Origin: Planctomycetota bacterium
GTDB taxonomy: Bacteria; Planctomycetota; UBA1135; JACQFD01
DNA length: 64,000 nucleotides
Assembly: GCA_016792805.1 (NCBI GenBank)
Contig: JAEUHX010000029.1
Coordinates: 1 to 64,000, forward strand
Direction: 5' to 3'
Position numbers and translations under genes: made by a program
Shown: positions 5,522-39,603 of the stretch, piece after piece
Layout: each line of letters opens with the position of its first letter
How positions within the stretch are numbered: position 1 is the stretch's first letter
Notes under the pieces: model-generated
Databases searched by the model: none
What the model saw: the letters and a program-made list of their open reading frames with translations, nothing else
What the model was told of the DNA's origin: nothing

Positions 5522-5689
5522 CTCCAGCAGGTCCACGGGATCACCTCGAGCCTGAGCGCGCCTTCGGGGCTCGCGAAGAACACGCGCTCGCGAGGGAATG
5601 TGTGAAACGCCAAGGGCGGTTTCAAGGAGCGCGTTTCCGCCGGCGGGCGGAGTGCTGCCCTCCGCGATCGGTTGTGGGAAACTCGAACG
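5522..5689. promoter_or_regulatory. Divergent intergenic region between ftsK-like and HEAT genes
   Basis: This 168-bp stretch separates two genes read away from each other, so it should hold promoters for both. I do not see a confident -35/-10 pair or operator in it. Confidence 0.4.
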
Positions 5690-6892
5690 ATGCTCTCGGC
5701 GCTCTTCTTTGCTCAAGCTGCGGCGGTGGGCGGAGCGTGCGCCGCCGCTTGGATGCTTGCCAAGAGACCGTCGAACCGCGCAAAGGCGCTGGGGGCAGAT
5801 CTTGGAATCCGGCCGCGTATTCGGTGGCTTCCGACCAGTCCACAGCTGGTCGGAACTGTGAATGGCATCGAGGTCGAGATCTTCGGCGACCGAGAGCTTC
5901 GGCTCCCGTCGATGCGCATCGAAATTCGCCCGCCCGCCAGCGATGCGTGGAGCATTCGCGGTGTTACCGCGCGCCGGTCCTCGCTCGCCCAGCCGCTTGT
6001 GCTCGCCGCGGGATCGCGACCCCACAATACGGGCGATGCGCGATTCGACGCTCTGTTCGCAATCCACGGCGACGAGCTGCGTGCGATTGCAGCCTTCGCC
6101 CCGAACGCGCGCCAGCTCGTGGTCGAGATTCTTGAGCTTGGTTGGGAGCTCCAGCTCCAGGAGGCGGTACTGACGCTCACGACGAAGTCGACCGCCGAAG
6201 AATTCGGAGGCGTTGCAGAAGCCGTGCGCCGAGGAGCGGTGCTTGCGCAGTCGGCTGCGAGCGAAGCGCGAGATTGTCGCGCGCGCTTCGAACGCGGCGC
6301 GATCGACGACCCGGAGGCGCTCGCCCGAGCTCGGTGCCTGCGGCTGCTCCTCGCCCACTATTCGGGGCCGAGTGCCGAGGTCGTTCGAGCGAGGGCACTC
6401 GGCGACACCTCGGAGGAAGTGCGACTCGAAGCCACCTTGTGGACCGCGGCTGCGGGATTGCCTTGTGAGCTTTCGGACCGGGCGCTCCCCACGTTCGAAG
6501 ATTTGTTAACTCATCCGCTGTACGCGGTACGGCTCGCCGCCGTGCGCGCGCTCGGAGCGGCCGGCACGCTTGCGAGCATCGAGAAGCTGCGGGCGTGCGC
6601 CTCGGCGCCCGACGCGGGGCGCGAGCTCCGGGGCGCGGTCGACACGGCCATTGTGGGTATTCGCGCGCGCGCTGGCGGAGGGACGCCCGGAGGGCTGAGC
6701 GTCGCGCCTCCGGAGGCGGAGCGCGGAAAACTCACACAATTCTCAGCGGTCGGCGGCGCGGCGGTCCTCGAGCTCGCGACGCAGCCCGAGGCGTCCGGCC
6801 AGGTGATACAGATTGCTCCGGTCGATCCCGAGGAGCCGACCGGCAGCCGCCCAGCTACCGCCGCTCCGGGCAAGGGCGTCGAGAATGAGTGA
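5690..6892 (+). CDS. Membrane-anchored HEAT-repeat protein, lone paralogue of the 26.5-37.9 kb family
   Basis: A 400-residue protein. Residues 1-20 form a hydrophobic anchor (MLSALFFAQAAAVGGACAAA). A middle domain of about 110 residues follows, with GTVNGIEVEIFG and the D-A-R-F-D segment that also marks the family members at 26.5-37.9 kb. The rest is alpha-helical HEAT-like repeats (AVRLAAVRALGAAGTLASIE) and a tail with GGLSVAPPEAERGKL, the family's G-x-L-S motif. After this motif about 50 more codons run antisense to the end of norR, giving a 150-nt convergent overlap; the original stop may have been lost. The ATG at 5690 is the first one that gives a complete anchor. Function unknown. Confidence 0.75.
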   Translation: MLSALFFAQAAAVGGACAAAWMLAKRPSNRAKALGADLGIRPRIRWLPTSPQLVGTVNGIEVEIFGDRELRLPSMRIEIRPPASDAWSIRGVTARRSSLAQPLVLAAGSRPHNTGDARFDALFAIHGDELRAIAAFAPNARQLVVEILELGWELQLQEAVLTLTTKSTAEEFGGVAEAVRRGAVLAQSAASEARDCRARFERGAIDDPEALARARCLRLLLAHYSGPSAEVVRARALGDTSEEVRLEATLWTAAAGLPCELSDRALPTFEDLLTHPLYAVRLAAVRALGAAGTLASIEKLRACASAPDAGRELRGAVDTAIVGIRARAGGGTPGGLSVAPPEAERGKLTQFSAVGGAAVLELATQPEASGQVIQIAPVDPEEPTGSRPATAAPGKGVENE

Positions 6893-8329
6893 TCGTTCAT
6901 AATCCTGAACGGCCTCGCGAAGCGGCTTCACGGGAGCAGGGCGAGCCTCCGAATGTGGAGCACTCGCGGGCGGCGCCGGCCTTGGCTCCTCGCGGGCATC
7001 GAGATCGTGCAACTCGACGATCACACGGCCCCCCGCCGACGTGCGCGCGAGAGCGCGCAGGATGGCGCGCGAGATAGCGTTCTCAAGCTCGCGCACATTT
7101 CCGGGCCAGGATCCTCGGGCCAGCGCCGCGATGGCGGCGGGCTCGAATCGGATAGGGCCCGTTCCGAGGCGGCGTCGGGCGCGGTCGGCGAAATGTCCCG
7201 CGAGCATCGGCACGTCCTCGAGGTGCTCGCGGAGCGGCGGGACGCGAATGCGGCAGACGTCGAGCCGGTGCAACAGATCGGAGCGAAAGCGGCCCGCGCG
7301 AACTTCGGCGTCGAGGTCCCGATTGGTGGCGGCGAAGAGGCGGACGTCCACATGGATCGGCTTGTCGGTGCCAACCGGCTGGATCTCCCCTTCCTGCAGG
7401 GCGCGCAGCAGCTTCGGCTGCACGTGCAGCGGCAGCTCACCAATCTCATCGAGGAAGAGGCTCGCGCCGTCGGCGACGCGGAACTTGCCGAGCCGCGCCT
7501 CGTGGGCGCCGGTAAAAGCGCCGCGCGCGTGGCCGAAGAGTTCACTCTCCACAACGGACTCGGGCAGCGCGGCGCAGTTTACATAAACGAGCGGTTCCTC
7601 GGCGCGCGGTGATTGTGAATGTAACGTTCGAACCACGAGTTCCTTGCCGACCCCGGTCTCCCCGGTGACGAGCACCGGGAAGAGCGACGGGGCGACGAGT
7701 TCGATCTCGCGCCGAAGCCTGGCCATCGCAGCTCCCGCTCCGATGAGCAGCCCTCCGCGGCGCTCAAGCACGTCGCGAACGAGTTCACGGGCGACCTGCC
7801 CCTTGCGCTGGGCGCTGCCTTCGAGCGCCTCGATCAGATCGCCGGTGCGCAGCGCCGCGGCGGAGAGGGCTGCGAGATAAGTAAGGAACCGTCGGTCAAT
7901 CCCGTCGAAGGCGCCGGGAGCCAGGGCGTCGGCAGCGAGAATTCCCACAAGTCGTCCTTCGATTCGAAGTGCACAGCCGAGGCATGAGTGCACATCGAGG
8001 TGGGGCGAGCTGCCGATGAGCCCATCGAACGGATCGGGAAGTGTGCTCTCGGCAGGAAAGATCGTCGGCTCGCTGGCGCGGCAGAGAATGTCGAGGCGCG
8101 GATGCTCTGAGCGCCGGAATCGGCGCCCGAGAACCTCCTGCGGCAGGCCGTGGGCGGCGACAGGGACGAGCTCCTCGCCCTCGGCGCGCAGCAGCGCCAC
8201 GGAATCGCACGGAAGCGCCCGCGCCAAGGTCGCGACGAGCCGCTTCGAGCGATCCTCCGCGGTGAGGGCAGCGGTCATGTCGAGGGCGATCGGAAGGAGA
8301 TCCTCGAGTTTCGGCTTGGTTGTACTCAT
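6743..8329 (-). CDS. norR: Nitric-oxide-responsive sigma-54 activator NorR
   Basis: A 528-residue enhancer-binding protein with GAF, AAA+ and Fis-type HTH domains. Residues that in E. coli NorR surround the NO-sensing iron are kept with a constant +3 offset: R78, R84, D99, D102, H114, C116 and D134 (E. coli R75, R81, D96, D99, H111, C113, D131). The AAA+ part has Walker A GETGVGKE (223-230), the sigma-54 contact loop GAFTGA (270-275) and Walker B LFLDEIGE (291-298). The HTH is GGSWAAAGRLLGIDRSNLYH near the C-terminus. It is divergent from ytfE/ric and norB, with a sigma-54 promoter between them. NO is the expected signal. The 3' end overlaps the HEAT gene on the other strand. Confidence 0.93.
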   Translation of the reverse strand: MSTTKPKLEDLLPIALDMTAALTAEDRSKRLVATLARALPCDSVALLRAEGEELVPVAAHGLPQEVLGRRFRRSEHPRLDILCRASEPTIFPAESTLPDPFDGLIGSSPHLDVHSCLGCALRIEGRLVGILAADALAPGAFDGIDRRFLTYLAALSAAALRTGDLIEALEGSAQRKGQVARELVRDVLERRGGLLIGAGAAMARLRREIELVAPSLFPVLVTGETGVGKELVVRTLHSQSPRAEEPLVYVNCAALPESVVESELFGHARGAFTGAHEARLGKFRVADGASLFLDEIGELPLHVQPKLLRALQEGEIQPVGTDKPIHVDVRLFAATNRDLDAEVRAGRFRSDLLHRLDVCRIRVPPLREHLEDVPMLAGHFADRARRRLGTGPIRFEPAAIAALARGSWPGNVRELENAISRAILRALARTSAGGRVIVELHDLDAREEPRPAPPASAPHSEARPAPVKPLREAVQDYERSLILDALARSGGSWAAAGRLLGIDRSNLYHLAGRLGLRRELEDRRAADR

Positions 8330-26529: not shown

Positions 26530-27702
26530 TCAGCGGTCGGGGCGCCGGATCGGGGAAGGGTGCGTGGGAGGCAGGGCAGAGAGCGCTCCTGATGCTGCGT
26601 CGCCGGGCGAGAGCGCTCCCGCGTCGAGCAGCGCATCGGGGAGAGAAACGGCTCCGGAGCTCCTCGACTCCGACTGCGAAAGATGGGCGGCGGCGCGCTC
26701 GGCGGCTTGACGCGCGGAGTCCGACGCGGATCGGGCTGCTGCAAGAAGCGTCTCGAGGACGCGCGCTCGCTCCGATGCGCTCGGGGCACACCGATAGGCG
26801 CGCTCGGCCAGATCGACGCAGGCTTCAAGGGGAGCGGTCGTAAGCAGCTGCTCCCAAGCGGCGAGCTGGGCCGGACTTGCCTCGGTCGCGAGGGATTCGA
26901 GGACCGGCCGGCCAGCTTCGCCGCACAGCACGGCAGCGGCGAAGCGCACCCAAGGCGACGCGTCTCCCTCCGCGCAGCGGAGCGTCGGCTCGAACACCGG
27001 GTCGTTTCGAAAATCCGACGCCAGGGTCTCGAGGGCTTGCGCGCGGACGCGATCGACGGGATCACGCATCGCCACCTCGGCGAGCGACTGCGGCGACGCC
27101 GCCGGCTGCTGCCCAAGGAGCCGCGCCGTGCTTGTTATTTTTCGCAGAAGATCACTCATCTCTTCGAGCGATGTAGGAACCCGCGGGATCGAAAGCCTCA
27201 ATTGCGCGCCACGGATGGATACGCGCCCGACACCGCCAAGTTCGATGAGCGCATCGCGGGCTTCGCCGCGCAGCAAGGAGAGAGTAGCTGCTGAGCCGCC
27301 TCTTGCAACATATCGAGATTGAAACTGCGGATCATGGATCGGCGCGACGATTCGGCCATCGGGGTCGAACTGCGGCGAATGCTGTCCCACAGGCTCGAGC
27401 CCAATTTCCGTGTCGAGATTCGGGACACGAACGCGGATCTCGACGCCATATCCGAATTGATGAGATTCGCCGAGAGTGACCCTTGCCTCGACGTCGAAGC
27501 GGTCGAATCGCCCCGCCATGGTCATGCCAAGAATGCCGTCAGAGCGCATGAGCGTGAGCCGCAGCGCGCGGGCAATTCGCGCCCATGCAGATATCACTAA
27601 TGCCGACTCAGCGTGCTTGGCTGCGGCGATCAGGATTCCCAGAGTCGCGAGAATCGCTACGATGATGATGATTCCAAGCATAGCTAGCTTCAGAGCTCCC
27701 AT
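26530..27702 (-). CDS. Membrane-anchored HEAT-repeat family protein, array member 8
   Basis: A 390-residue protein with a strong N-terminal membrane helix (AMLGIIIIVAILATLGILIA). The middle domain is family-like in position but divergent (RFDRFDVEARVTLGESHQFG, HDPQFQSRYV). Helical repeats follow (VDRVRAQALETLASDF, WVRFAAAVLCGEAG). The tail is long and rich in Ser, Ala and Pro, with GAVSLPDALLDAGALSPG, the G-x-L-S motif. It lies 7 nt after the previous array gene. The start could also be the internal ATG at about 27681. It is the last of the array and among the more diverged members. Function unknown. Confidence 0.72.
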   Translation of the reverse strand: MGALKLAMLGIIIIVAILATLGILIAAAKHAESALVISAWARIARALRLTLMRSDGILGMTMAGRFDRFDVEARVTLGESHQFGYGVEIRVRVPNLDTEIGLEPVGQHSPQFDPDGRIVAPIHDPQFQSRYVARGGSAATLSLLRGEARDALIELGGVGRVSIRGAQLRLSIPRVPTSLEEMSDLLRKITSTARLLGQQPAASPQSLAEVAMRDPVDRVRAQALETLASDFRNDPVFEPTLRCAEGDASPWVRFAAAVLCGEAGRPVLESLATEASPAQLAAWEQLLTTAPLEACVDLAERAYRCAPSASERARVLETLLAAARSASDSARQAAERAAAHLSQSESRSSGAVSLPDALLDAGALSPGDAASGALSALPPTHPSPIRRPDR

Positions 27703-27709
27703 GGGAAAA

Positions 27710-29878
27710 TCAGCTCAGCTTCGACGCCTCGTCGCTCCGCCGCCGAATTCCACCGTCTTGAGCTGGAGGCGCCTTCACACCTGAGAGCTGACCAGCCTCC
27801 GAAGGCGATGACACACTCAATCCACCCTGAGGACTTGACTTGACGAGGTCGAGCATTCTCACCGCCGCCTGGATGCAACGCTGCTGCTCTTCAGTTGCAT
27901 CCGAAGCCCTGAGGCTGAGTCTCTCCCGTGCCAGCCTCATGAAATCCTCTGTTGGGTGCTGCTGGCAAGCGCGATGGACAATCTGTAGCAAGTCGCTCAA
28001 CGACACGTCTCGGTCGAGACGAAGCAGCGCGCGAGCCTGCACATCACTTCGAACGCATGCGATCTCGCGTAAGGCCCCGCGACCTTCCATTCCAAGCGCG
28101 CTTGCCGCAACAAATCTCACAGCAGGCGAGGGGTCGTCCAGGTAGTCTCTAGCTCGGAGTGTGGCATCTCCATGCTCGGCGATCGCACCAAGTGCGGTCT
28201 CCAGCATTCGGGCCCGAACGCCATCGACCGAATCGAGCCGCGACAGCTCCCACAGCTTCTCCAGGTTGCCATCTCGTTCATTCAGAGACTGGCACGCTTC
28301 GATTAGTAATTGTAACGTGCGATCCCAGTCATCGGACTGCAGAGAGCGCGTGGAGAATCGCAGCTGAGCTGCTCCAGCCTCGAGGCTCAACTCTCCGAGC
28401 TCCTCCAGCGCCAAAAGGCGCGCGCGACATGGAGAGTCGAATCGCGCGATTGCGGTAGGATCGAAGCACGAGACGGCGACCCGTGACTCGAATGCGTCGT
28501 CCCCAACATGGATTCGGGGCGCTGCATCGTCGCTCGACTTCGCCGGCATCACTCGCCAGCCTCGAATGTTGAGATCTCGCGGGATCGTCTCCCCGCGCAA
28601 GCGAATCGTCGCGAAGGAGCCAAGATCTCCGAGTCCAAGCTTTGATACCAATAACTCAACCTGGACGCACGACACTCTACCGAGAAAGCGGTGCTCACCG
28701 GCGGCAGTGAGCTGGCAGCGGCTAAAACCATGTCTCTTGGCGAACTGCTCCCACTCCGTCGCTATGGGCCCAGCGGGAGTGCAGCCCCGCAGCCGCCGAC
28801 GAACGACCCAGCCCGCAAGCAGACAGAGCCCTATGAACATGGTGCCTCCAAGCACCTCCAACGGACTCAGACTCGATACTAATGGAATCGTGGTGCTGGA
28901 CACATCAATCATTGCTGGCAGCGTGGTTAACTCTCCACCACCCGTATCGCCTGTCGGCTTCGAGAGCGCCCCGGAGAGGTTGGGGCCGAGGGAAGCGCGA
29001 AGCTCCTCGGCGTAGGCTGCGAGTTTTTGTTGCACTCCGCGCGCGAGATCCGTTCGCTTGGCCGCGGCGGCGAGGTGAGGCAGGTCGTCCGCACTCGGAT
29101 TTCTTCGCAGAAAAGTAAGAGCGGAAAGAACGATCCGGCTCTCGCCCGACTCGAGCACCGCCAGCAGGTCGGGTCGGGCCCTCTCCCCGTCGAGCGCTGC
29201 GAGCTGGCGCAGCGAAGCTGTCCGCACATGGGGGTCGCGGGCGCCGCGCACCCAGCGACGCAACAGTTCCCGCTGAGAATCCGGGGGAATGTGGGCGGCG
29301 ATCCACTCGAGGGCGGGCTTGAGAAGGTCGTGGTGGATCTCGAACGGCTCAAGGATTTCTTGGATCCGATCGACGCCATCAGCGCCGTCATGGATCGCCG
29401 CGCGAAGGCGAATCATCGCGTTCGCGTCGGAGCGCGCCTTTTGTACGGTCTCCCTCGTCGCGGACGAATCGGGGTATCGCGACACGAGAAGATCGAACGA
29501 GCGCAGGCGCGCTCCCGTATCGCTCGGCTGAAGCACGAGACGGGAAAGATACCGATCGAACTGTTGAGCTTCTCTTGCGATCTCCAGAGCCTTCCTCGCC
29601 ACGCGCCGAACGAGCCCATCGATCTCGCGATCCGTCAGCGCAGGCCCCGTCCGCTCAAGAATGACTGCGCCCTCCTCGGTTCGCAGATGAGTGCGCGGAA
29701 GATGAGGGGAGACGATCGGATCGCGCTCCACAAGCCGAAGCTCTGCTGGAATCTTGAACTGTGCGTTCGCCCGCAGCCGGCCGACGACGCGCACTCGACC
29801 ATCGGCCCGCTTCTCCACGGCAATTCGCACTCCATCCATCGCTGAATGCCACATTTCAATCCGCCTCTTCGAGCTCAC
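27710..29878 (-). CDS. Double-length HEAT-repeat family protein (fusion of two units), array member 7
   Basis: A 722-residue protein made of two family units in one frame. Unit 1, about residues 1-325, has a middle domain without a membrane anchor (AMDGVRIAVEKRADGRVRVV), then HEAT-like repeats (HVRTASLRQLAALDGERARP) and a tail with GALSKP. Unit 2 starts about residue 355 with a membrane helix (GTMFIGLCLLAGWVVRRRL), then the middle domain, repeats (AVRFVAASALGMEGRGALRE) and a GGLSVSSPSEAGQLS tail. A lost stop between two former genes would explain this. The GTG start overlaps the previous stop by 4 nt. Its first unit may depend on the preceding short gene for its anchor. Confidence 0.72.
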   Translation of the reverse strand: MSSKRRIEMWHSAMDGVRIAVEKRADGRVRVVGRLRANAQFKIPAELRLVERDPIVSPHLPRTHLRTEEGAVILERTGPALTDREIDGLVRRVARKALEIAREAQQFDRYLSRLVLQPSDTGARLRSFDLLVSRYPDSSATRETVQKARSDANAMIRLRAAIHDGADGVDRIQEILEPFEIHHDLLKPALEWIAAHIPPDSQRELLRRWVRGARDPHVRTASLRQLAALDGERARPDLLAVLESGESRIVLSALTFLRRNPSADDLPHLAAAAKRTDLARGVQQKLAAYAEELRASLGPNLSGALSKPTGDTGGGELTTLPAMIDVSSTTIPLVSSLSPLEVLGGTMFIGLCLLAGWVVRRRLRGCTPAGPIATEWEQFAKRHGFSRCQLTAAGEHRFLGRVSCVQVELLVSKLGLGDLGSFATIRLRGETIPRDLNIRGWRVMPAKSSDDAAPRIHVGDDAFESRVAVSCFDPTAIARFDSPCRARLLALEELGELSLEAGAAQLRFSTRSLQSDDWDRTLQLLIEACQSLNERDGNLEKLWELSRLDSVDGVRARMLETALGAIAEHGDATLRARDYLDDPSPAVRFVAASALGMEGRGALREIACVRSDVQARALLRLDRDVSLSDLLQIVHRACQQHPTEDFMRLARERLSLRASDATEEQQRCIQAAVRMLDLVKSSPQGGLSVSSPSEAGQLSGVKAPPAQDGGIRRRSDEASKLS

Positions 29879-30396
29879 CGACGAGATGGGATGCGTCCGG
29901 AGCGGCCAGCGTTTCCGCGGCGCGGTACCGACTGGAGAAGCCGAATTGTTCGATTCACCGCATCGACCACAAATACAACGATCTTTTCTGAATCGAGAGT
30001 CCTGCCCACCTCCCTCTCTCCGAGCAAGAACTGCCCTCGCCTGCTGAACTCAATCGGACGGTCCATACCCTCTGCCCCCGAGTGCTCCTCGGTGGGAACC
30101 GCGGTTGGGTCTGGGTGAGCAGCGAGGTTTGCTTGTACTCTCATTGAATATCGGAGCGTGGGAGACCTCTCGATCCAAATCCAGAAATCTACACCCTCCA
30201 CTGTTCCCTTCAAGCGAACCAATGGGGTCTCGACAAAATCGAACGCAGGCGAGAGCCGCTTCTGCGCCTCGCGGAGACGATACCAAGCCGTGTTGTGCCG
30301 ATTGGATTCCCGAAACAGAACTTCAAGCAACACGCTGAAGAGAGCTTCCCCAACGACTCCGATGGCCTCGAGCGCTCCGAAAATATCAACGCTCAT
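29875..30396 (-). CDS. HEAT-less N-terminal module of the array family, member 6
   Basis: A 173-residue protein with a hydrophobic start (FGALEAIGVVGEALFSVLLE) and the family middle domain (GTVEGVDFWIWIERSP), but no HEAT repeats. It ends in a basic Arg/Gly-rich tail. It overlaps the genes on both sides by 4 nt, so it is tightly coupled. It may be a true short member, or the severed front of the next gene, whose first unit lacks an anchor. The middle domain ends soon after FVVDAVNRTIRLL, which favours a truncation that has become stable. Confidence 0.62.
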   Translation of the reverse strand: MSVDIFGALEAIGVVGEALFSVLLEVLFRESNRHNTAWYRLREAQKRLSPAFDFVETPLVRLKGTVEGVDFWIWIERSPTLRYSMRVQANLAAHPDPTAVPTEEHSGAEGMDRPIEFSRRGQFLLGEREVGRTLDSEKIVVFVVDAVNRTIRLLQSVPRRGNAGRSGRIPSRR

Positions 30397-31751
30397 TGGC
30401 CCTCTCCTGGACTCAGGCCACCCTCGGAAGAACGCGGCCGAGAGAGCGCTCCGGACGGCGCCGCCGCATCCGTGATCGAAAGTCCGCCCGCGGTCGAGAG
30501 GCCGAGCCGCTCCTGGATGAGTGAGATCGCCGCCCGCGCCTCGCGTCGAAGCTCGCTCACCGGCATCGCCTCTTCAGCGGCGCGGTGAAGGGCAGAAATC
30601 GATTCGACTCCGCCAAGCTTCCCGAGCTGGCGTGCCGCCGGCAAGCGCACGTCGTCGATCGGCCGCTCGAGAAGTGAATGCCACACATCCGAGGGAGCGC
30701 CGATCGCCTCGAGTGCCGCCGCTGCGCGGGCGGCCGTCGCGGGACCCGCATGCAGTGCGAGCTCCATCATCGGCTGCCGCAGCTCCTCCCATCGGTGTTG
30801 GCGTGCATGCTCGAGAGCCATCGAACGCGCCTGGCTCGTCTCGGGAGAACTCAATAATTCACCCAGCACCGATACAGTTCGCTCGCGCGGAAACCGTGCG
30901 AGCAGGTGGGAAAGCGCCTCCACGCGCGCCTTCGGCTCGAGCCGGGCATCGAGCGCGGCGGAGCGCAACCCCTCAAATCCGCTTTCGCCGAGCGCGCGCC
31001 CCGCAGCGAGTCGCACCTGCGGGTCGGCATCGGCCATGGCGCGCTCGAGCACTGAACGATGGGTCTCCCCTCGATCCGCCCTCGAGACGAGCAGGCGGAG
31101 GCATCGAAGCCTCATTTCCGGATGCGGGTCCTCCAAGACGATTGCGGCCGTCGAACCCTCCCGATCGGCCGCCGCTTGTGTGAGCGCCTTCGCGAGAAGC
31201 GCCGTATCGGTGACGAGGCGCTGGCACTTTTCCGCGTCGGCGCTGCGCTCATACAGACTCACATGAAGGCCCGATTTGTCCGCCCGAATGCGGGCACATT
31301 GGCCAAGCCGCACGAGCAGCCGGCGCACGGGCGCGCTCAGCAGAGGTAACACAAACTCAGCGGCTCCGAATGCAAAGAAACCCTGCGCCCCGACCTCACT
31401 CAGCTCATGAGCCGGTCCAGTCTGAACTGCTCCCATGCCTTCGTAGAAATCGAACAACGCCACTTTTTCCGGGAATCCAGGGAGCGAGACGGATACGGTG
31501 CCAATGGAGCTGCTGCGAGAATCCTCCGTCGAGGGAAGGCGTGTCACCGTCACGTCGACTCCTTCAACGCGCCCCGCCGCCGAGCGTCCACCAATCGGCC
31601 CCTTCGGCTTCTCCACGAGCTGGAGCGCGCGAAGCACAGCGCTCCAAGCATCGACGGGGTCTCCTCGCTGCTCGCGGGGACGTTGGACAGCCCAGGCGAT
31701 CCAGGTCGCGAGAAGCAAGGCTCCTCCGAGCGCGGGAAGCAGGACCTCCAT
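30393..31751 (-). CDS. Membrane-anchored HEAT-repeat family protein, array member 5
   Basis: A 452-residue full-length member. An N-terminal helix (MEVLLPALGGALLLATWIAW) is followed by the middle domain (GRVEGVDVTVTRLPSTEDSR), then HEAT repeats such as MRLRCLRLLVSRADRGETHR, VRLAAGRALGESGFEGLRSA and LGKLGGVESISALHRA, then a tail STAGGLSITD... with SGALSRP and GGLSPGEG. I chose the ATG at 31749-31751, with GGGGA upstream; a TTG at 31760 directly abuts the previous stop. The repeats probably form a cytoplasmic solenoid that binds other proteins; this is inference. Confidence 0.8.
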   Translation of the reverse strand: MEVLLPALGGALLLATWIAWAVQRPREQRGDPVDAWSAVLRALQLVEKPKGPIGGRSAAGRVEGVDVTVTRLPSTEDSRSSSIGTVSVSLPGFPEKVALFDFYEGMGAVQTGPAHELSEVGAQGFFAFGAAEFVLPLLSAPVRRLLVRLGQCARIRADKSGLHVSLYERSADAEKCQRLVTDTALLAKALTQAAADREGSTAAIVLEDPHPEMRLRCLRLLVSRADRGETHRSVLERAMADADPQVRLAAGRALGESGFEGLRSAALDARLEPKARVEALSHLLARFPRERTVSVLGELLSSPETSQARSMALEHARQHRWEELRQPMMELALHAGPATAARAAAALEAIGAPSDVWHSLLERPIDDVRLPAARQLGKLGGVESISALHRAAEEAMPVSELRREARAAISLIQERLGLSTAGGLSITDAAAPSGALSRPRSSEGGLSPGEGQ

Positions 31752-31760
31752 GTTCCCCAA

Positions 31761-33092
31761 TTATCCTTTTGTGGGGATCTTCGGGGCCTCCGAGAGCATC
31801 CCGTGATCGTCCGCAGAGCTCAACTTTCCTGCATCGGACACATCGACACCCAGAGCAAGCCCTCCGCGCTCCACGTTGGGAAGCCGCGATTGGATCTGTG
31901 CTACGGCGCGCCGCGCTACTTCCGCGAGGGCACGCGAGCTCGATGCCGCCGACAGCAACGGCTCCACGTCCTCGACAGTCCCGATCAGACCAAGGGCTTC
32001 CGCCGCCTTGGAAGCGAGTTCGGGGTCCTCTCGAGTCAGCAGATTTCGAAGGGTGGAGCGGCTTTCGTCGCCGCCGAACATGGAGAGCGCATCGATGCAT
32101 GCCGTCGCCGTCTCAACGTCTGCGCGTTGGGACAGTCCCACAATTTCTTGCTGCAGTCCGATTAACTTTCGAGATCCAACAATACGAACGGCTGCGATGC
32201 GGCCAGGAGACGGCTGGCGCTCCTCGAGAATCGGCCGCAGCAGATCGAGCAGCTCCTTCTCTTGATTGACCTCTGCCAGGAGCTCGACTATTTGTGCTCT
32301 CTGCTCGTGCTCCATCACACCGGGCCTTAGCGCAGCGCGGAGCAGGGGGCCGCCGTGTCGGCGAAAAGCCAGTGCGCTCGCAAATCGGATCGCAAAGTCA
32401 GGGTCCTCGAGCCCCTTCAAGACCGCCTCCTCCGCGCTCTCCTCAAGATTCGGGACGTGAGAGATTCTTGAGAAGCCGCGAACGCGCTGTGCATGATCTG
32501 TAGACCGCAGGAGCCGCGTCTCATAGCTCTGGTCGCCGCGCGCCAAATCCCGATCGAGCTCCTCAGCCGCCATGGCCGACTCGCGCATGAGATACAACAC
32601 ATCGTCGGCAGAGAGCGACGTGTTCTTGCGCGCTGCGACCAGCTCACCGCTCTCCAGGCGAAGATCACAGTGTCGAGCCAGCTGCACGAGCCGCGCGCAC
32701 ACCTCGCTGCTCAGCAACGCGTCGACCCGCGGCTCGCCCTCCACCATCCAGAAACGATCATTGAAGTCACGGCGGATAGCCTCGGGCATCCGTTGCCCAT
32801 CGCCTGCGGGCTCCCCAGCACGCCGCGAGTAGATCTGTAAGGCCTTTGGAATCGCCAGCGGAACACGAATCTCCAAGTTGCTTTGATCATCCGAGAGGAG
32901 CAGCTTGACGAGCCGCCCATGAATGAGCCCTTCGCCGTGTAGCTTCCCCGATGCTTGGTTCGCGAACAGCGTGAGGCCGCTGGCTTCCGCAATGGACACG
33001 AGGAGAGAGGGTCGACGTTCAGTCAGATATACCAGCAGAGAAGCTGCTGCCACGGCGAAGCCGACGATGAGGAAGATGGCGGTCACTTCCAT
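31761..33092 (-). CDS. Membrane-anchored HEAT-repeat family protein, array member 4
   Basis: A 443-residue member. The start MEVTAIFLIVGFAVAAASLL is a membrane anchor. The middle domain (GEGLIHGRLVKLLLSDDQSN) includes IRRDFNDRFWMVEGEPRVD, and the HEAT part has FAIRFASALAFRRHGGPLLR and AEALGLIGTVEDVEPLLSAA. The tail ends GGLALGVD, GKLSSAD and GMLSEAP, three G-x-L motifs. The ATG at 33090-33092 is 5 nt after the previous stop; the open frame extends further upstream but overlaps the previous gene. Function unknown. Confidence 0.8.
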   Translation of the reverse strand: MEVTAIFLIVGFAVAAASLLVYLTERRPSLLVSIAEASGLTLFANQASGKLHGEGLIHGRLVKLLLSDDQSNLEIRVPLAIPKALQIYSRRAGEPAGDGQRMPEAIRRDFNDRFWMVEGEPRVDALLSSEVCARLVQLARHCDLRLESGELVAARKNTSLSADDVLYLMRESAMAAEELDRDLARGDQSYETRLLRSTDHAQRVRGFSRISHVPNLEESAEEAVLKGLEDPDFAIRFASALAFRRHGGPLLRAALRPGVMEHEQRAQIVELLAEVNQEKELLDLLRPILEERQPSPGRIAAVRIVGSRKLIGLQQEIVGLSQRADVETATACIDALSMFGGDESRSTLRNLLTREDPELASKAAEALGLIGTVEDVEPLLSAASSSRALAEVARRAVAQIQSRLPNVERGGLALGVDVSDAGKLSSADDHGMLSEAPKIPTKG

Positions 33093-33097
33093 GTGCG

Positions 33098-33703
33098 CTA
33101 TTTCCTCGGCGAGCTGCGGCACGCGGAGGAGACCGCGGCCGCACAGAAGACCAATTGTCGAACTCGTTCGATGAAGGGATGGGAGCGAAGCACCGAGCCT
33201 TGGAGCTGTACGAGCACTTTTCCCTCCGCGATCCAAGCCGTGCCTCCCCTCGCGAGGTCGTCGATCGAGCGGCGCGCGTCCGCGTCGAGCACTGCGCGCG
33301 CGACGTCCTCGCGCCCCAGGATCCGAAACCTCTTGTCGAATTCCGGATCTCCGACCTCGACCTCGCGAATCCCGAGCGCATCCTGCACGAGCTGAGTCCA
33401 GTCGGAGCGGGCGACGCGCAGATCGGCCGGCAGGCCGGGAACTAACACTTCCGCGCGGGTCACAATGGATCGGCTTTTTTGAGTTCTTACTTCCAGCTCG
33501 TAAGCCGAAACGCTGAGCCCGTTCAGCTCTCCGCGCAACCGCGGCTTCGCGCCTCCCTCCTCGCATTCGAACTGGAGCCCGAGTTCCGCCGCAGCCTCCT
33601 CCCATGCGCGCCTCGAACGCCTGCGGAGCCGCGACTGCACAAAAAGGCCCACCGCGATGAAGCCAATCAGGAGCCCAAACGGGAGAAAGTCGTCGAGACT
33701 CAT
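33098..33703 (-). CDS. HEAT-less module of the array family, member 3
   Basis: A 201-residue protein with the family's membrane anchor (LPFGLLIGFIAVGLFVQSRL) and a well-kept middle domain: GELNGLSVSAYELEVRTQKS, VPGLPADLRV, DPEFDKRFRILGREDVARAV. It stops where the HEAT repeats would begin. The good preservation of the middle domain and the tight spacing (4 and 5 nt to the neighbours) argue that it is a real short member and not debris. It shows that the anchor plus middle domain can stand alone. Confidence 0.72.
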   Translation of the reverse strand: MSLDDFLPFGLLIGFIAVGLFVQSRLRRRSRRAWEEAAAELGLQFECEEGGAKPRLRGELNGLSVSAYELEVRTQKSRSIVTRAEVLVPGLPADLRVARSDWTQLVQDALGIREVEVGDPEFDKRFRILGREDVARAVLDADARRSIDDLARGGTAWIAEGKVLVQLQGSVLRSHPFIERVRQLVFCAAAVSSACRSSPRK

Positions 33704-33707
33704 CGCC

Positions 33708-35165
33708 TCAGGTCTCGCGCTCGCGATTCGATTCGGAAATATTCGTGCGAACGACGACTGATTCGGAGTCCACGCGAGGCGCCTCCCGCGCCGTCTCTGC
33801 AGCGGTTCGGCGGACTCCGTCGGCCTCCGGCATGCTCAACGATCCGCCGTCGGCGGAGGGTTCGGCAACTGTGAGACCTCCCGCGCCCGCTTCGGCTCGG
33901 CGTGCGCGAATCCGATCGACCGCAGAACGGGCCGCGGTCTTCACCACACTGGATCCCAAGAATCCCTGAGTGAGAGGCAGCAGCTTCTCGACAGCGTGCG
34001 CCGTTCCCACATCTGCGAGCGCACGAGCTGCGGCCGCCCGGACCTCGGAATCGTCGCGCTCGAGCATCCTCAATAAATGAGCCTCCGCGTGCTCCTCGCC
34101 GCATCGGCCGAGGCTCATCGCAGCGACACATGCCGTTGCCGGCTCGGCCTCGAGCCCGAGCTTCAATAACAAGCCCCCGACACCCTTCATCCGCAGCTTC
34201 CCAGCGAGCTCGGCCGCAAGCGCCCGCATTTGTGGTGACTCGCGGTCCGCAAGCCCGGCGCGGATCGCCGCTTCACACAATGCCGGTTCGAAGCGCTCAA
34301 CCAGCGCGCGCAACGCTCGGACGCGCAGGTCGGGCTCGACGGCCGCGCTCTGCACCCCGGCGGCAAGGGTCTCCCGCGCATGCTCGCCGCCATAAATCGC
34401 GGCAAGCGTCGCCACGCGCGAGTCGGTGTCACGGAGCGCCCTCTCCTTGGCTCGCAGTGCCGCGGGATGCTGACCATACCGGCTGAGAGCGAGATCGAGC
34501 GATTTATAACGAACCCCAGCATCGGGATCGGAAGTAGCATTGCGAGCAAGCGACTCCACGACGTCGCTTGGAATTGTAGCGAATGGGCGAAGGATGGCGA
34601 CCGCGGCGTCGAGCATCTCGCCGAGTTGGCTGCCCTCGGTTAAGAGCCCGCCTCGCACGAGCGTGAGTTGCCCCTTCTCAAGTTTCGTGGTGTATTTCTG
34701 AGCTGAGGTGAGGAACGCCGCCCGGGCTTCGGGGACCAGCCTCGAGAGGCACACATCTTCAGGACCTTGCACACGAAAAGCCTTGTCGAAGGCCGTGTCG
34801 CCCGAGTCGACGTCCAGTCCTCCAAAGGCCTTTGCGATCCTTGCGCCGAGCCCTTCTTGTGCTACCAACAAATCCGCCGGCACTCTGCTCGCAGTCGCAG
34901 TAACGCGAGTGAACGTCTGAGACGACTTCCCGGTGCTGACTGTATAAGTGTCGAGCTTGAGCCGGATTCCGTGCTCCTCGCCCGCCATGTAAGTAGACTG
35001 TTTCCAAGTGCCCTTGACCCATCGAAGGCCGCGGCGACTCGCGAAGCCACGCCACTCCGACTCGACCTTCTTACTCCAGCGCGCGCCCGCCCAGATGATG
35101 ACAACGATCACCGCAGCGATGGCGGCCATGGCCGGAACGGCGAGAAACGGAAGGGCAGCGAGCAT
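33708..35165 (-). CDS. Membrane-anchored HEAT-repeat family protein, array member 2
   Basis: A 485-residue member with a typical anchor (MAAIAAVIVVIIWAGARWSK). The middle domain is the clearest of the family: GLGARIAKAFGGLDVDSGDT is followed by AFDKAFRVQGPEDV, and near-identical wording occurs in the next upstream gene. HEAT repeats follow (EVRAAAARALADVGTAHAVE, EPATACVAAMSLGRCGEEHA). The tail has GGLTVAEPSADGGSLSMPE. The ATG at 35163-35165 is the start that gives the anchor; the longer frame to 35255 would overlap the upstream gene. Confidence 0.82.
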   Translation of the reverse strand: MLAALPFLAVPAMAAIAAVIVVIIWAGARWSKKVESEWRGFASRRGLRWVKGTWKQSTYMAGEEHGIRLKLDTYTVSTGKSSQTFTRVTATASRVPADLLVAQEGLGARIAKAFGGLDVDSGDTAFDKAFRVQGPEDVCLSRLVPEARAAFLTSAQKYTTKLEKGQLTLVRGGLLTEGSQLGEMLDAAVAILRPFATIPSDVVESLARNATSDPDAGVRYKSLDLALSRYGQHPAALRAKERALRDTDSRVATLAAIYGGEHARETLAAGVQSAAVEPDLRVRALRALVERFEPALCEAAIRAGLADRESPQMRALAAELAGKLRMKGVGGLLLKLGLEAEPATACVAAMSLGRCGEEHAEAHLLRMLERDDSEVRAAAARALADVGTAHAVEKLLPLTQGFLGSSVVKTAARSAVDRIRARRAEAGAGGLTVAEPSADGGSLSMPEADGVRRTAAETAREAPRVDSESVVVRTNISESNRERET

Positions 35166-35211
35166 GGCTTGATTCTGAACCAGGGCGGCTTCGGCGGCTA
35201 TCCCGGGGGCG

Positions 35212-36540
35212 CTACGAGGGCAGCTTCCCGCGAGTCGCCGAGTTGTGGCGTACATTCCCAGCGTCGGACGGTTCCGTAAGGGGAAGCGCCGCCGCGGAGA
35301 GGCCGCCAGCCGGCTCCGCGGCGCTCAGCCCGCCGCCGGTAGCCTCGGCCCCCGACGAGAGGGAAAGCTGGCCCGCGTCGGCACCGACTGCGCGCGACTG
35401 GATTTGTTGGATTGAAGATCTCGCGACTGCCCCCAATTCTCCCAGAATCATGCGATTCGAAAGCGACAAGAGCTTCTCTACGGAGCCTACAGTTCCGACG
35501 AAGCCGAGGGCGTGCACCGCCGCGAGCTGTAAAGACTCCTCCTCTCGGCTGAGAATCTTGAGGAGCATGGGCTCAGCCGCTTGCCCAAGCAGAGTCTCGG
35601 CGAGCCCGCACGCCGCAGCGGCGAGCTCCGAGGGCGCCTGCAGCCACTCTGCAGATCCGAGCCACCGGGAAGCGGCTTCAGGATCCCTTCTCGACCAGGC
35701 GCGCAGCGCACGCGCGCGGAGGGCGGCGTCGAGATTCGCCGATTCCACGGCGCGCGACAGCACGCGTTCGCCGCCGGAAGGAAGTGCCATTGCGCTCAGG
35801 ATGGCGAGATGAAATTCGCTTCCTTCGACAAGCTCCGAAAGGAGCTGCTGGACGCGCGGCTCCTGACTGTAATGTGTAATGAGCGTCTCGAGCGCGACGC
35901 GCCGCACACTCTCGTCGGGATCCTCTTGAATGCGCATCACGAGACCCGTCAGAGGTTCGGGCGGCGCAGCCGCGAGCGCCCGTGCCAAAGTCAGCGTGAG
36001 CGAGAGAAGTCCGTCGAGCGCAACGCCATCGGTAATGATTCCCCGATAAGCCACAGAAACGGCGCCGTCGGAAACCTCAAATCGAGCCGCGGACGCCGCC
36101 GCGACGGCGGCATCGCGAGCCTCACCGCTGAGGGCCGCGCGGCACAAGGCCTCGCCGCCCTGCACGCGAATGCGCGAATCGAATCGGGCGTCGCCCGTTG
36201 TAACGTCCTGGCCGCCGAACGCCTTCGCGATCGAGGTACCAATTCCTTCGGCACTCAGCTTGAGCGAAGCGGGAATTGTTGCGCCTCGCACCACGGCGCG
36301 CGTGAAGGTCCGCCGGTTCTTGCCGCCTCCGGTCGAGAAGGTCTGAATGGTTACAAAGAGGTCGTCGATGGAGCCTTCGATTCGAGCGGGAGTCGGCCAG
36401 CTTGCCGCGACGAACCGAAGCCTTCGCTGCTCCGCGACCTTCGCCCAGGACGCTTGCTGCGCTGCACGCCTGGATAAGGCAGCAATCCAAGCGAAACCCA
36501 CGAAGACGACAAACATTGCGATCAGCAAGCTCGGACTCAC
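35212..36540 (-). CDS. Membrane-anchored HEAT-repeat family protein, array member 1b
   Basis: A 442-residue member, closest to the gene downstream of it. Anchor: LLIAMFVVFVGFAWIAALSR. Middle domain: GIGTSIAKAFGGQDVTTGDA then RFDSRIRVQGGEAL, matching the equivalent part of member 2. HEAT part: SVRRVALETLITHYSQEPRV and AVHALGFVGTVGSVEKLLSL. The tail has GQLSLSSG, GGLSAAEP and GGLSAAALP. The GTG start at 36538-36540 overlaps the previous stop by 4 nt. Recent duplication within the array is likely. Confidence 0.82.
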   Translation of the reverse strand: MSPSLLIAMFVVFVGFAWIAALSRRAAQQASWAKVAEQRRLRFVAASWPTPARIEGSIDDLFVTIQTFSTGGGKNRRTFTRAVVRGATIPASLKLSAEGIGTSIAKAFGGQDVTTGDARFDSRIRVQGGEALCRAALSGEARDAAVAAASAARFEVSDGAVSVAYRGIITDGVALDGLLSLTLTLARALAAAPPEPLTGLVMRIQEDPDESVRRVALETLITHYSQEPRVQQLLSELVEGSEFHLAILSAMALPSGGERVLSRAVESANLDAALRARALRAWSRRDPEAASRWLGSAEWLQAPSELAAAACGLAETLLGQAAEPMLLKILSREEESLQLAAVHALGFVGTVGSVEKLLSLSNRMILGELGAVARSSIQQIQSRAVGADAGQLSLSSGAEATGGGLSAAEPAGGLSAAALPLTEPSDAGNVRHNSATRGKLPS

Positions 36541-37859
36541 AGGACTTCCTCCGCCCCATCGTCCCGAGGCTCGGCCGGCGGAAACTGAAGCGCGCCGAGG
36601 TGCTCCGGCTCCGAGAGGGCTCCCGACTGCGACAGCTCGCCGGCAAGGCTCACCCATCCCGCCTCGGCGCCCACCAATCGATTTCGGATCCGCTGCAGCG
36701 CCATCTCGGCGGCGCCACGAAGCTCCTTGCCGCGATCCTTCGAACGTTCGATTTGTTGCAGAGGCTCCACGGCCGCCGCGGTGCCGCACCGCGCCAAAGC
36801 AGATACCGCCGCCCGCTGCACGGCCTCGCTGCTCTCATCAAGCATCGCGAGCGCGTAGGGTTCCATGAACTCCCCAAGAATGCGTGCGAGGGTCTTGAGG
36901 TCTGAGGCCGAGAATCGCCGTTGGCGAACCCATTCCTCCATCACGGTCCGAACGTCCCTTCGATCTGTAAGTTCCTGAACTTCCAGCGCTCTCGCCCGGT
37001 ACTCAGGCTCAAGCTCAAGAATCTCGGCCGTCAGCTCGGCCCAGCCGTCGAAGGGGTGCGAGAGAAGCATGCGCAATGCGCGAAGCCGCGGCTCCATGGC
37101 GAGGTCGCGATCCACAGCGAGAGATCGCAATAGATGCAACCCCCCATCGCCTGCCAGGGCGGCGCCCTCGAGCCGAACAGCCGGATGCGGATCAGCCATG
37201 GCAGCCTCGATCGCCTCCTGCGCGGTCGCGGTGCCCGCTGCGTACGAGTGAAGACATAGAAGGCTGCTGACTCTCACTCGAGGATCCGAATCCGTGCGCA
37301 CGCTGTCGAGGAGAGACTCGGCCGCATGCGCCGCACGAGCGGAAAGCTGATCATAACACTTCGCCATCGACCGCGCGGCGCCGCCGATGCGCTCGGCATT
37401 CATCGGCCTCGTAACCGGAACGATCAGCTCGCCCCCGCGCACCGCGGCGGCCGCCTGGAGCATCCAAGCACGCTGCTCCGCTCCCAGCATGCCCAAGCAC
37501 TGCGCCTGCGGCCCTACAACCCGAAACGCATGATCGAAGGGCCCATCTCCTGTGAGATGGTCTCTCAGGGCCTCCTCCTCGTCGGCAGGTCGGATCACAA
37601 CATCTCTTGGAATCGACGGAGAGTCTGCACTCATTGCGATCGCACGGAGCGAGCAGACGGCGGCGCTTCCTGAATTCTTGAAGGCTCCGGCTTGAATCTT
37701 GATTCTCACTTCTCCAACGGAGCCCACGATTTCGTTCGTCCTTCGTACGACCCTCGGGTTCACTTTCCAGCCGAGAGATTCGGCCGCCTCCAGCAAAGGA
37801 TGCGCCGAAGCTCGCCGCAGGCGCCATGCCGAGATGAGTTGCAACAATCGGCTCAGCAT
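36537..37859 (-). CDS. HEAT-repeat family protein, array member 1a, next to Hsp70
   Basis: A 440-residue member. The N-terminus (MLSRLLQLISAWRLRRAS) is only weakly hydrophobic, so this one may be peripheral and not membrane-spanning. The middle domain has GSVGEVRIKIQAGAFKNSGS and GPFDHAFRVVGPQAQCLGML. The repeats include PAVRLEGAALAGDGGLHLLR and VQRAAVSALARCGTAAAVEP. The tail has GWVSLAGELSQSGALSEPE. I chose the ATG at 37857-37859, preceded by GAGGGA; a TTG at 37880 would add seven residues. It lies 37 nt downstream of the Hsp70 gene and probably shares its transcript. Confidence 0.8.
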   Translation of the reverse strand: MLSRLLQLISAWRLRRASAHPLLEAAESLGWKVNPRVVRRTNEIVGSVGEVRIKIQAGAFKNSGSAAVCSLRAIAMSADSPSIPRDVVIRPADEEEALRDHLTGDGPFDHAFRVVGPQAQCLGMLGAEQRAWMLQAAAAVRGGELIVPVTRPMNAERIGGAARSMAKCYDQLSARAAHAAESLLDSVRTDSDPRVRVSSLLCLHSYAAGTATAQEAIEAAMADPHPAVRLEGAALAGDGGLHLLRSLAVDRDLAMEPRLRALRMLLSHPFDGWAELTAEILELEPEYRARALEVQELTDRRDVRTVMEEWVRQRRFSASDLKTLARILGEFMEPYALAMLDESSEAVQRAAVSALARCGTAAAVEPLQQIERSKDRGKELRGAAEMALQRIRNRLVGAEAGWVSLAGELSQSGALSEPEHLGALQFPPAEPRDDGAEEVL

Positions 37860-37896
37860 CTTCGATCCCTCAACCGACAATCCCCAATGCCTATTC

Positions 37897-39603
37897 TCAT
37901 AAGAGCCTCACCACGGGGTGCCCGTCCAATAGCAATTTTCGGCTCAGCAGATCCCGCACCGTCGCGATCAGCCAGCGGTCGTCGTTCACGCCGAAGGCGA
38001 TCTCGAGCCTCGGGCGTCGGTCGCTCGGAGGATGGGGCGGATCGAGATATCCGAGCGTCGGGTCCGATTCATTGAGCGGAACGATGACCTTGGACTCGAC
38101 CTGGGGGCCCGTCGGCGACTCCGCTCCGACGCGGTGCACGTGCCCCTGCGCATCCCACACAAATTCGGTAGCGCCGTGGGACTGACCAACTTCACAAATT
38201 ATCAGCTTGAACATGGTCTCGGGCTCGCCGAGAGCACACGTCGGCACGAGCTGGCGCTTCCAGTGCTCGCGCGACGTGGGGAAGCGCGTCCCGCGCGGCA
38301 CGATCACGGTGTATTGAGGCTCCCGCGTTTTTGCGTCGTAGGTCACAAAAGCGTAGTCGTGCACGATGTGATCGCTCAGATTCGCCCGCCCCGCCGCAAA
38401 CACGCAGGCGCCAAAGGCCACCGCCTCGAACGGCTGCCAGGAACGAACACGATCACGGCCGAAGCGCGACTCGATACGCGGAAAAATTCCGGGGAGAAGC
38501 GTTGAGCCGCCGACCATCAGCACATCCTGAATCGCATTCTGCGTGATCCCCATTTGTGAAGCCTGCTGCAGCACGCTCTCTACGCAGTCATCAAGTAATC
38601 CGTACACGCCGCGCACTCGCAACACTTCCACCAGATCGTCGCGTGTGAAATCGAGCTTCGACAGCAGCTCGCGCGAGGCGCTTCCGAGCGAAGCCAGCTC
38701 CTCGGGAAGCACAGTGAAAGAAGCGGTCGGCGCGAAGAAGAGCGCCTCCTTCACGCGACGAGACTCCTGCAGCATCAGCTTGTAGCGCGCCCGACGCGCC
38801 GGATCATCGGGCTCCCGCTCCAGCGGCACGCCTAATCGGCGCCCGAGCTCAGCGAGAAGCCACCGATCGACAAAAGTGCCTCCCACGGGGCGCCCCGATT
38901 TGGCGATCACCCGTGAATGCCCCGCATCCAACGACTCCCGCGACATCTGTGCGAGCGCCACATGGAGCGTGCCGCCGCCGAAATCCACCAAAAGAACGAG
39001 GCGGTCGGAGGTGAGGCTCAGCCCGTAGCCTGTCGCCGCGGCAATCGGCTCGTCGACAAACTTGACTTTTTGGATGCCGAGCAGCTTGGCTATCTGTTGC
39101 AATTCCGCCCGATAGGTCTCGAACGCCTCCACGGGCGCCGTCAATGCAACATCACGAATCCGCTCCCCGGTCACATGCTGCACTTCCGCCAGCAACTCGC
39201 GAGTGAACATCCGGGCGACGTCGCGCGCCGTGTAGCTTTGCGAGCCGGCGCGCACGAGCGGCCGCAGCGCCTCCCGCTCGAGGAACAGCTTGAAACTCGG
39301 CGCGAAGGCCGGGCTCACAAAGCTCTCGTTCTCCTCGAGCGCCGGCCGGCCGATGATCGCTTGCTTTCCCCAGAAGAAGCGCCGCGAGACCGCGGGCCAC
39401 GCCCCGATGCGCGTCCACAGATCGCGAGCGCCGAGCACCTGGGTGGCCGACGGAATGAGGCGCGAACCCTCGAGCGGATCGCCGCTCCCGCCAGGCTTGC
39501 GACAGATGCGCGGCATCTCGAGCAGCCGCGGCTGCCCGGTGGCGTCGTCCCAACGCGCGACACGGGTATGCGTGGTCCCGAGATCGATCGACCAACCGGA
39601 CAT
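37897..39603 (-). CDS. Hsp70-family chaperone-like ATPase heading the HEAT array
   Basis: A 568-residue protein with the Hsp70 nucleotide-binding domain: phosphate-1 SIDLGTTHTRVARW, phosphate-2 VLLVDFGGGTLHVALAQ, the FVDEPIAAATGYG segment and adenosine motif VLMVGGSTLLPGIFPRIESR. After about residue 395 a short beta-rich segment like the substrate-binding domain follows (YTVIVPRGTRFPTSREHWKR), but there is no full helical lid or DnaK-type C-terminal tail. It differs from housekeeping DnaK, and no dnaJ or grpE gene is near. It is the first gene of the co-directional HEAT array, which suggests a functional link. The ATG at 39601-39603 precedes the phosphate loop at once. Confidence 0.88.
   Translation of the reverse strand: MSGWSIDLGTTHTRVARWDDATGQPRLLEMPRICRKPGGSGDPLEGSRLIPSATQVLGARDLWTRIGAWPAVSRRFFWGKQAIIGRPALEENESFVSPAFAPSFKLFLEREALRPLVRAGSQSYTARDVARMFTRELLAEVQHVTGERIRDVALTAPVEAFETYRAELQQIAKLLGIQKVKFVDEPIAAATGYGLSLTSDRLVLLVDFGGGTLHVALAQMSRESLDAGHSRVIAKSGRPVGGTFVDRWLLAELGRRLGVPLEREPDDPARRARYKLMLQESRRVKEALFFAPTASFTVLPEELASLGSASRELLSKLDFTRDDLVEVLRVRGVYGLLDDCVESVLQQASQMGITQNAIQDVLMVGGSTLLPGIFPRIESRFGRDRVRSWQPFEAVAFGACVFAAGRANLSDHIVHDYAFVTYDAKTREPQYTVIVPRGTRFPTSREHWKRQLVPTCALGEPETMFKLIICEVGQSHGATEFVWDAQGHVHRVGAESPTGPQVESKVIVPLNESDPTLGYLDPPHPPSDRRPRLEIAFGVNDDRWLIATVRDLLSRKLLLDGHPVVRLL

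Follow-up and report, generated by a model that had tools for sequence, protein, structure and literature searches.

A lidless Hsp70 co-inherited with membrane-anchored HEAT-repeat proteins that share a C-terminal tail motif

A rare Hsp70 without the alpha-helical lid and a fast-evolving family of membrane-anchored HEAT-repeat proteins with a shared tail motif occur together in several bacterial phyla. We first met the pair in a stretch of 64,000 nucleotides from a Planctomycetota bacterium (the window), where one Hsp70 gene is followed by nine genes of the HEAT family. In even samples of 392 Planctomycetota, 193 Myxococcota and 247 Acidobacteriota genomes (832 in total, among them incomplete MAGs, and related by shared ancestry rather than independent lineages), all 13 genomes with this Hsp70 also carry the HEAT family, usually next door. 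A functional pairing of the two is well supported by this pattern. The literature on Hsp70 and HEAT repeats that we searched (Planctomycetes, Myxococcus and gene-neighbourhood papers) gave no description of the pair, a real association that recurs and has apparently not been described before. Within the libraries searched, the partner family with HEAT repeats and tail is new; the Hsp70 is a variant of known Hsp70s.

The gene array and its Hsp70

The array covers positions 26530-39603 on the minus strand, starting with the Hsp70 gene (37897..39603) and continuing with tightly packed ORFs of one divergent family, as the first-pass annotation had described. That annotation counted eight ORFs; there are nine (g1 to g9), or about ten units, as one gene is a fusion. 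From the Hsp70 onward the gaps are 16, -4, 46, 4, 5, 0, -4, -4 and 7 nt. A middle domain, HEAT repeats and a tail with G-x-L-S motifs (GxLS tail) are combined in seven of the ORFs (g1, g2, g3, g5, g6, g8 and g9). The first of these, g1 (36537..37880, minus strand as all ORFs of the array, 447 aa, profile E 5.9e-112), has HEAT repeats and the tail and no clear membrane helix; it starts with TTG, and an alternative ATG at 37859 is possible. Membrane helix, middle domain, HEAT repeats and GxLS tail are all present in g2 (35212..36540, 442 aa) and g3 (33708..35165, 485 aa, profile E 2.6e-138). Full members are also g5 (31761..33092, 443 aa, profile E 2.4e-109), g6 (30393..31760, 455 aa, TTG start, profile E 1.0e-118) and g9 (26530..27702, 390 aa, profile E 1.0e-38), the last with a shortened HEAT part and a tail array of GAVS, GALS and GALS at 26578..26655.

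Two short members consist of a membrane helix and the middle domain only, g4 (33098..33703, 201 aa, profile E 1.4e-35 over positions 7-193) and g7 (29875..30396, 173 aa), where the middle domain is degenerate. The remaining gene, g8 (27710..29878, 722 aa), joins two units head to tail, with profile matches at 27884-28840 and 29105-29692. Unit 8a has HEAT repeats and an internal GALS/GELT tail at 28925-28972 and lacks a membrane helix; unit 8b has the second membrane helix (28814-28870), HEAT repeats and a tail. The plan of anchor, middle domain, HEAT repeats and tail that was originally proposed for all ORFs describes the full members, but not g4 and g7, which lack HEAT repeats and tail, g1 with its missing clear membrane helix, or the fused g8. 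Likewise, the string FGG-D..[ST]GD..FD....V.G, proposed for the middle domain, is clear in g2 and g3 only and is eroded in the others.

The Pfam HEAT_2 model is matched above the cut-off by g1, g2, g3, g5, g6 and g8, and g9 falls just below. HEAT repeats are common in this genome (113 HEAT_2 matches), so that HEAT alone is not diagnostic. A tenth family ORF lies in the window unlinked to the array (5672..6892, plus strand, 406 aa), with a membrane helix, a middle domain containing TGDARFD, HEAT repeats and a GGLS/GKLT tail; it has profile matches at G000:C23:5696-6463 (1.6e-29) and 6479-6745 and a Pfam HEAT_2 match. This ORF is antisense to an FtsK-gamma-domain ORF called at 3410-6358 on the minus strand, and one call overlaps the other's start. 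Another contig of the same genome carries a further member (G000:C29:107889-108842). The genome also encodes DnaK and a second Hsp70, and the window's contig has no J-domain gene. Elsewhere in the window we observed a nitric oxide reductase subunit B-like protein with a fused cytochrome c-like domain (9156-11465, plus strand), with a sigma-54 activator gene nearby (6743-8329, minus strand).

The Hsp70-family protein has 568 residues (Pfam HSP70, 7.5e-28), comprising a nucleotide-binding domain (NBD) and a beta substrate-binding domain (SBD). Unlike canonical DnaK, it has neither an alpha-helical lid nor a disordered C-terminus. The alignment with DnaK spans the whole NBD and beta SBD and ends where the DnaK lid begins. 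In the AlphaFold2 model (pLDDT 87.9) a beta-sandwich SBD follows the linker, with strands within residues 416-566, and the final element is a beta strand, residues 556-566. The C-terminus, PVVRLL, is located at the DnaK lid start, and the same end is kept in 31 aligned sequences of the close clade (defined below). Fold matches of the model include DnaK, lid-truncated Hsp70s and Ssz1 (6sr6, 5mb9).

Residues D7, K105, E185, D207 and T212, corresponding to the DnaK catalytic set, are invariant or nearly so in the clade (the equivalence of K105 with DnaK K70 was judged by eye), and the linker motif D-x-I-V-H-D-Y-A is conserved. The conserved catalytic residues suggest that the lidless protein probably retains ATP hydrolysis. 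Conservation in the close clade is higher in the SBD than in the NBD (mean pairwise identity 0.60 vs 0.50), whereas the two domains are about equal in the sister clade (0.60/0.60) and in a DnaK control (0.58/0.56). This difference suggests that the SBD of the close clade may read a constant ligand. We also considered whether Phe465, which does not vary within the clade, fills the pocket that corresponds to DnaK Val436; as MAFFT aligns the stretch differently, this is not claimed.

Domains and tail of the HEAT family

Full members of the family begin with a membrane helix and continue with an alpha/beta domain, about seven HEAT repeats and a tail predicted to be disordered. The AlphaFold2 model of g3 (pLDDT 89.5) has an N-terminal helix at residues 5-44, the alpha/beta middle domain at 45-198, the HEAT solenoid at 202-426 and a predicted disordered tail at 427-485 (33711..33887, minus strand; pLDDT about 40-50), which contains GGLT and GSLS. 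Lysine or arginine follows the membrane helix in 38 of 39 members. From these positive charges we infer inner-membrane proteins whose N-terminus faces outward and whose large domains lie in the cytoplasm.

The predicted disordered tail is the most conserved region of the family. Among about 40 full-length members the mean pairwise identity is 39% in the tail, 27% in the HEAT part, 21% in the middle domain and 20% in the membrane part. The tail motif is [AG]-G-x-L-S-[LVI]-[AVS]-[ED], with G-x-L-S-[LVI]-A as the repeated core. The repetition of G-x-L-S seen at the first reading holds across the family, with 92 copies in 42 tails; when each tail is shuffled, the mean is 6.6. Apart from the family, the loci examined contain no convincing ORF with a motif array of the GxLS type. 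The absent lid, the probable cytoplasmic orientation and the tail, not the middle domain, as the most conserved part had all been missed by the first-pass annotation.

The middle domain, which had been said to fit no family that could be named, has no significant Pfam or NCBIfam match in the window proteins (residues 45-198). When 42 family members were compared with Pfam and NCBIfam, matches were restricted to HEAT/ARM models plus one weak DUF3592 and one weak DUF4042 match, and no member matched a J-domain profile. A fold search with the HEAT model is dominated by solenoids and does not identify the middle domain; the top 50 PDB matches are alphaRep designs, importins and other solenoids. 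The diagnostic role first given to the middle domain is not supported. It also occurs without HEAT repeats or tail, and with a different C-terminus, in seven Planctomycetota genomes in which no Hsp70 ortholog was found; the middle domain is therefore a general domain, more widespread than the Hsp70 system, and not the hallmark of the family. The proteins observed at loci L141-L147 are membrane-anchored and join the same middle domain (AFGGxDIxVGDxxFD) to another C-terminal domain.

Co-inheritance and gene neighbourhoods

In the sampled Planctomycetota three of 392 genomes have the Hsp70, and these are also the ones with the full-length family. Five of the 193 Myxococcota have the Hsp70 and four of them score for the family; in the fifth (G475) a family member lies directly downstream of the Hsp70 with a 4-nt overlap. 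The Acidobacteriota give the same picture, with the Hsp70 in five of 247 genomes and the family scoring in four, always adjacent. The fifth (G868) has the most divergent pair, with an Hsp70 40% identical and a divergent member directly upstream, whose tail reads GMIS..GMIS..GEIS. With strict thresholds and the best few candidates scored per genome, a strong full-length family match was found in none of the other 819 genomes. The co-occurrence with this Hsp70 subfamily, raised at the first reading, is thus borne out.

A scan of about 85,000 species genomes gave 46 loci, of which 33 form a close clade (42-56% identity) in Planctomycetota, Myxococcota, Acidobacteriota, Spirochaetota and Armatimonadota. 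A family gene is beside the Hsp70 at 17 of the 33 loci, mostly with gaps of -4 to +47 nt. At 15 of these it is directly downstream, usually as a single gene; one locus is convergent (L073) and one has three genes upstream (L078). An Hsp70 without HEAT genes next to it, which the first-pass annotation took to speak against the link, is found at the other 16 loci, but 14 of these 16 genomes encode the family elsewhere and the pairing is not refuted. No convincing family member was found in two Hsp70-bearing genomes, G466 (L084) and G461 (L071).

The usual state is one Hsp70 with one HEAT gene, and the large array of the window is an expansion of this normally one-to-one pair. Several of the nine window copies have very long branches in the HEAT-family tree, whose support is too weak to tell whether they are one recent expansion. 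More than ten unlinked paralogues are present in one genome, G178; unlinked paralogues mostly keep the tail. In a Myxococcota genome (G453) we observed four family members in one stretch (L132, 5391-13304), an independent local expansion, and noticed no Hsp70 on that contig.

Among 100 near relatives of the window genome, searches for this Hsp70 gave only weaker, DnaK-like matches, and a genome of the same taxonomic family (G001) has neither this Hsp70 nor a strong HEAT-family member. As close relatives lack it, the system is patchy and has probably been gained or lost often. An origin from mobile elements was considered and rejected: no relative was found in viral contigs, and the one plasmid match is a 29%-identical Hsp70 from a cyanobacterium. 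A reading as a defence system was also considered, for which the PADLOC models gave only weak partial matches (PDC-M61B at 3.7e-5 for the Hsp70, HEAT-ARM_XIII at about 4e-4 to 6e-4 for g1 and g3). In the neighbourhoods examined we noticed no third constant gene, and the Hsp70 is the only constant companion of the family. At one locus of G178 (L055, 6305-8785) genes for PspA/IM30 and an AAA ATPase adjoin the Hsp70 pair on the same strand, an arrangement not noticed in the other loci examined; these neighbours are a hint of membrane stress, another pointer in that direction.

Proposed mechanism and comparison with known systems

A membrane-tethered chaperone system, as the first-pass annotation suggested, is the best reading of these data; the quality-control role named alongside it is a guess. 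We propose, with confidence that is evenly balanced, a two-part system in which a cytosolic lidless Hsp70 works with membrane HEAT adaptors whose tails dock in its SBD. The tails, with two to four copies of G-x-L-S-[LVI]-A, would bind the beta SBD, recruit the Hsp70 to the cytoplasmic face of the membrane and compete with client peptides. The HEAT solenoid and the middle domain would read a client or a membrane-side partner, and additional adaptors, such as the nine encoded next to the Hsp70 in the window, would allow more kinds of partner. As the Hsp70 has no lid, its binding should be weak and fast, and several motifs per tail together with several adaptors per cell could hold it by avidity. 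Tail-to-SBD docking, avidity and the identity of the clients are all hypotheses here.

A sharper version is more tentative. The lidless Hsp70 might be a membrane-recruited motor for paralogous adaptors, its SBD reading the new motif G-x-L-S-[LVI]-A as a fixed ligand and the fast-changing HEAT and middle domains choosing the target. Some points argue against the two-part proposal: the motif adjoins acidic residues, which canonical Hsp70 sites disfavour, many genomes have members unlinked to the Hsp70, G461 and G466 gave no convincing member, HEAT proteins are common in these genomes, and the tail could bind another partner.

The main rival to tail docking, in our judgement unlikely, is that the HEAT solenoid and not the tail contacts the Hsp70, the family being membrane-tethered ARM/HEAT nucleotide exchange factors like Fes1, HspBP1 and Sil1. 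Exchange factors of this kind are known for eukaryotic Hsp70s (PMC6615629, PMC4753570), we noticed no GrpE gene next to this Hsp70 at the loci examined, and identity is higher in the HEAT part than in the middle domain (27% vs 21%). However, none of the 50 best PDB fold matches of the HEAT model is Fes1, HspBP1 or Sil1. The HEAT repeats also vary far more than the Hsp70 does, and a role in nucleotide exchange would leave the conservation of the tail array unexplained. In addition, a related operon in Anaerolineae has both GrpE-like and HEAT/WD40 genes, which argues against HEAT proteins simply replacing GrpE.

A similarly low probability goes to the adaptors being clients, i.e. aggregation-prone membrane HEAT proteins that the Hsp70 keeps soluble or inserted, with the tails as recognition tags. 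Co-inheritance and a repeated short motif fit such tags equally well, but a maintenance client needs no dedicated lidless Hsp70 when DnaK and a second Hsp70 are also encoded. A little less probable again is an indirect role of the Hsp70 in the system, with the tail attaching to some unrelated partner that the members have in common, be it a protease, a beta-rich scaffold or another protein of the family. The tie between tail and SBD is itself a proposal, and any beta-sheet might take up the motif as an extra strand; against this stands the lack of any third constant gene beside the pair in the neighbourhoods examined. Finally, chance neighbourhood without a functional link, which the many HEAT_2 matches of the window genome could favour, is very improbable, as it is contradicted by the recurrence of the pairing beside the Hsp70 in Planctomycetota, Myxococcota, Acidobacteriota and Spirochaetota.

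With DnaK, the Hsp70 shares the catalytic residues and an NBD and beta SBD that can be aligned over their full length, at about 18-19% identity in the fold alignment; the differences are the absent lid, a D-F-I-V-H-D-Y-A linker in place of VLLLD and an insertion in the N-terminal lobe. The Anaerolineae operon (L088-L099) encodes an AAA ATPase, a HEAT/WD40 protein, a GrpE-like protein, a lidless Hsp70, DUF1257 (ycf35-like) and a radical-SAM-like protein. Its Hsp70 belongs to a lidless sister clade (28-32% identical) with an HDYA linker and is also beside a HEAT-repeat gene, but the partner has a WD40 propeller and lacks the GxLS tail, and the operon includes a GrpE-like gene. The Anaerolineae HEAT/WD40 protein was seen to end in GEFDI-type residues. 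The family shares with Fes1, HspBP1 and Sil1 a helical-repeat partner dedicated to an Hsp70; it differs in having no sequence or top-50 fold match to them, a membrane anchor, an extra domain and the conserved tail array. Known Hsp70-containing conflict systems were set aside, as the partners of Hsp70 there are GTPases, tubulin and GrpE rather than HEAT adaptors (PMC7159879).

The pair offers a lead on the function of many HEAT-repeat hypothetical proteins in Planctomycetota, Myxococcota and Acidobacteriota, and adds an unclassified membrane-proximal domain that is found more widely. Hsp70 targeting is generally thought to run via J-domain proteins and promiscuous SBD binding. If the sharper proposal is true, bacteria would have an adaptor code for an Hsp70 that differs from the J-domain-based targeting described to date.

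The closest parallel is with the lidless yeast Hsp70 Ssz1 of the ribosome-associated complex, whose SBD binds the LP-motif of Zuo1 as a pseudo-substrate (PMC7083937). DnaK without its lid exchanges peptides 10-100 times faster (PMC7083937), so repeated tail motifs would be useful. Both Hsp70s lack the alpha lid, and the two Ssz1 structures are among the fold matches given above. Ssz1 does not hydrolyse ATP, whereas the Hsp70 described here has the catalytic residues and would be expected to do so; Zuo1 is a J-domain protein at the ribosome, whereas the partner here is a membrane HEAT protein with no J-domain match. Unlike in Ssz1-Zuo1, the motif is repeated in a C-terminal tail, and its docking in the SBD is a hypothesis. 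A widespread lidless bacterial Hsp70 with motif-sharing membrane adaptors would give Hsp70 place and specificity by a different route, in parallel to the eukaryotic Ssz1-Zuo1.
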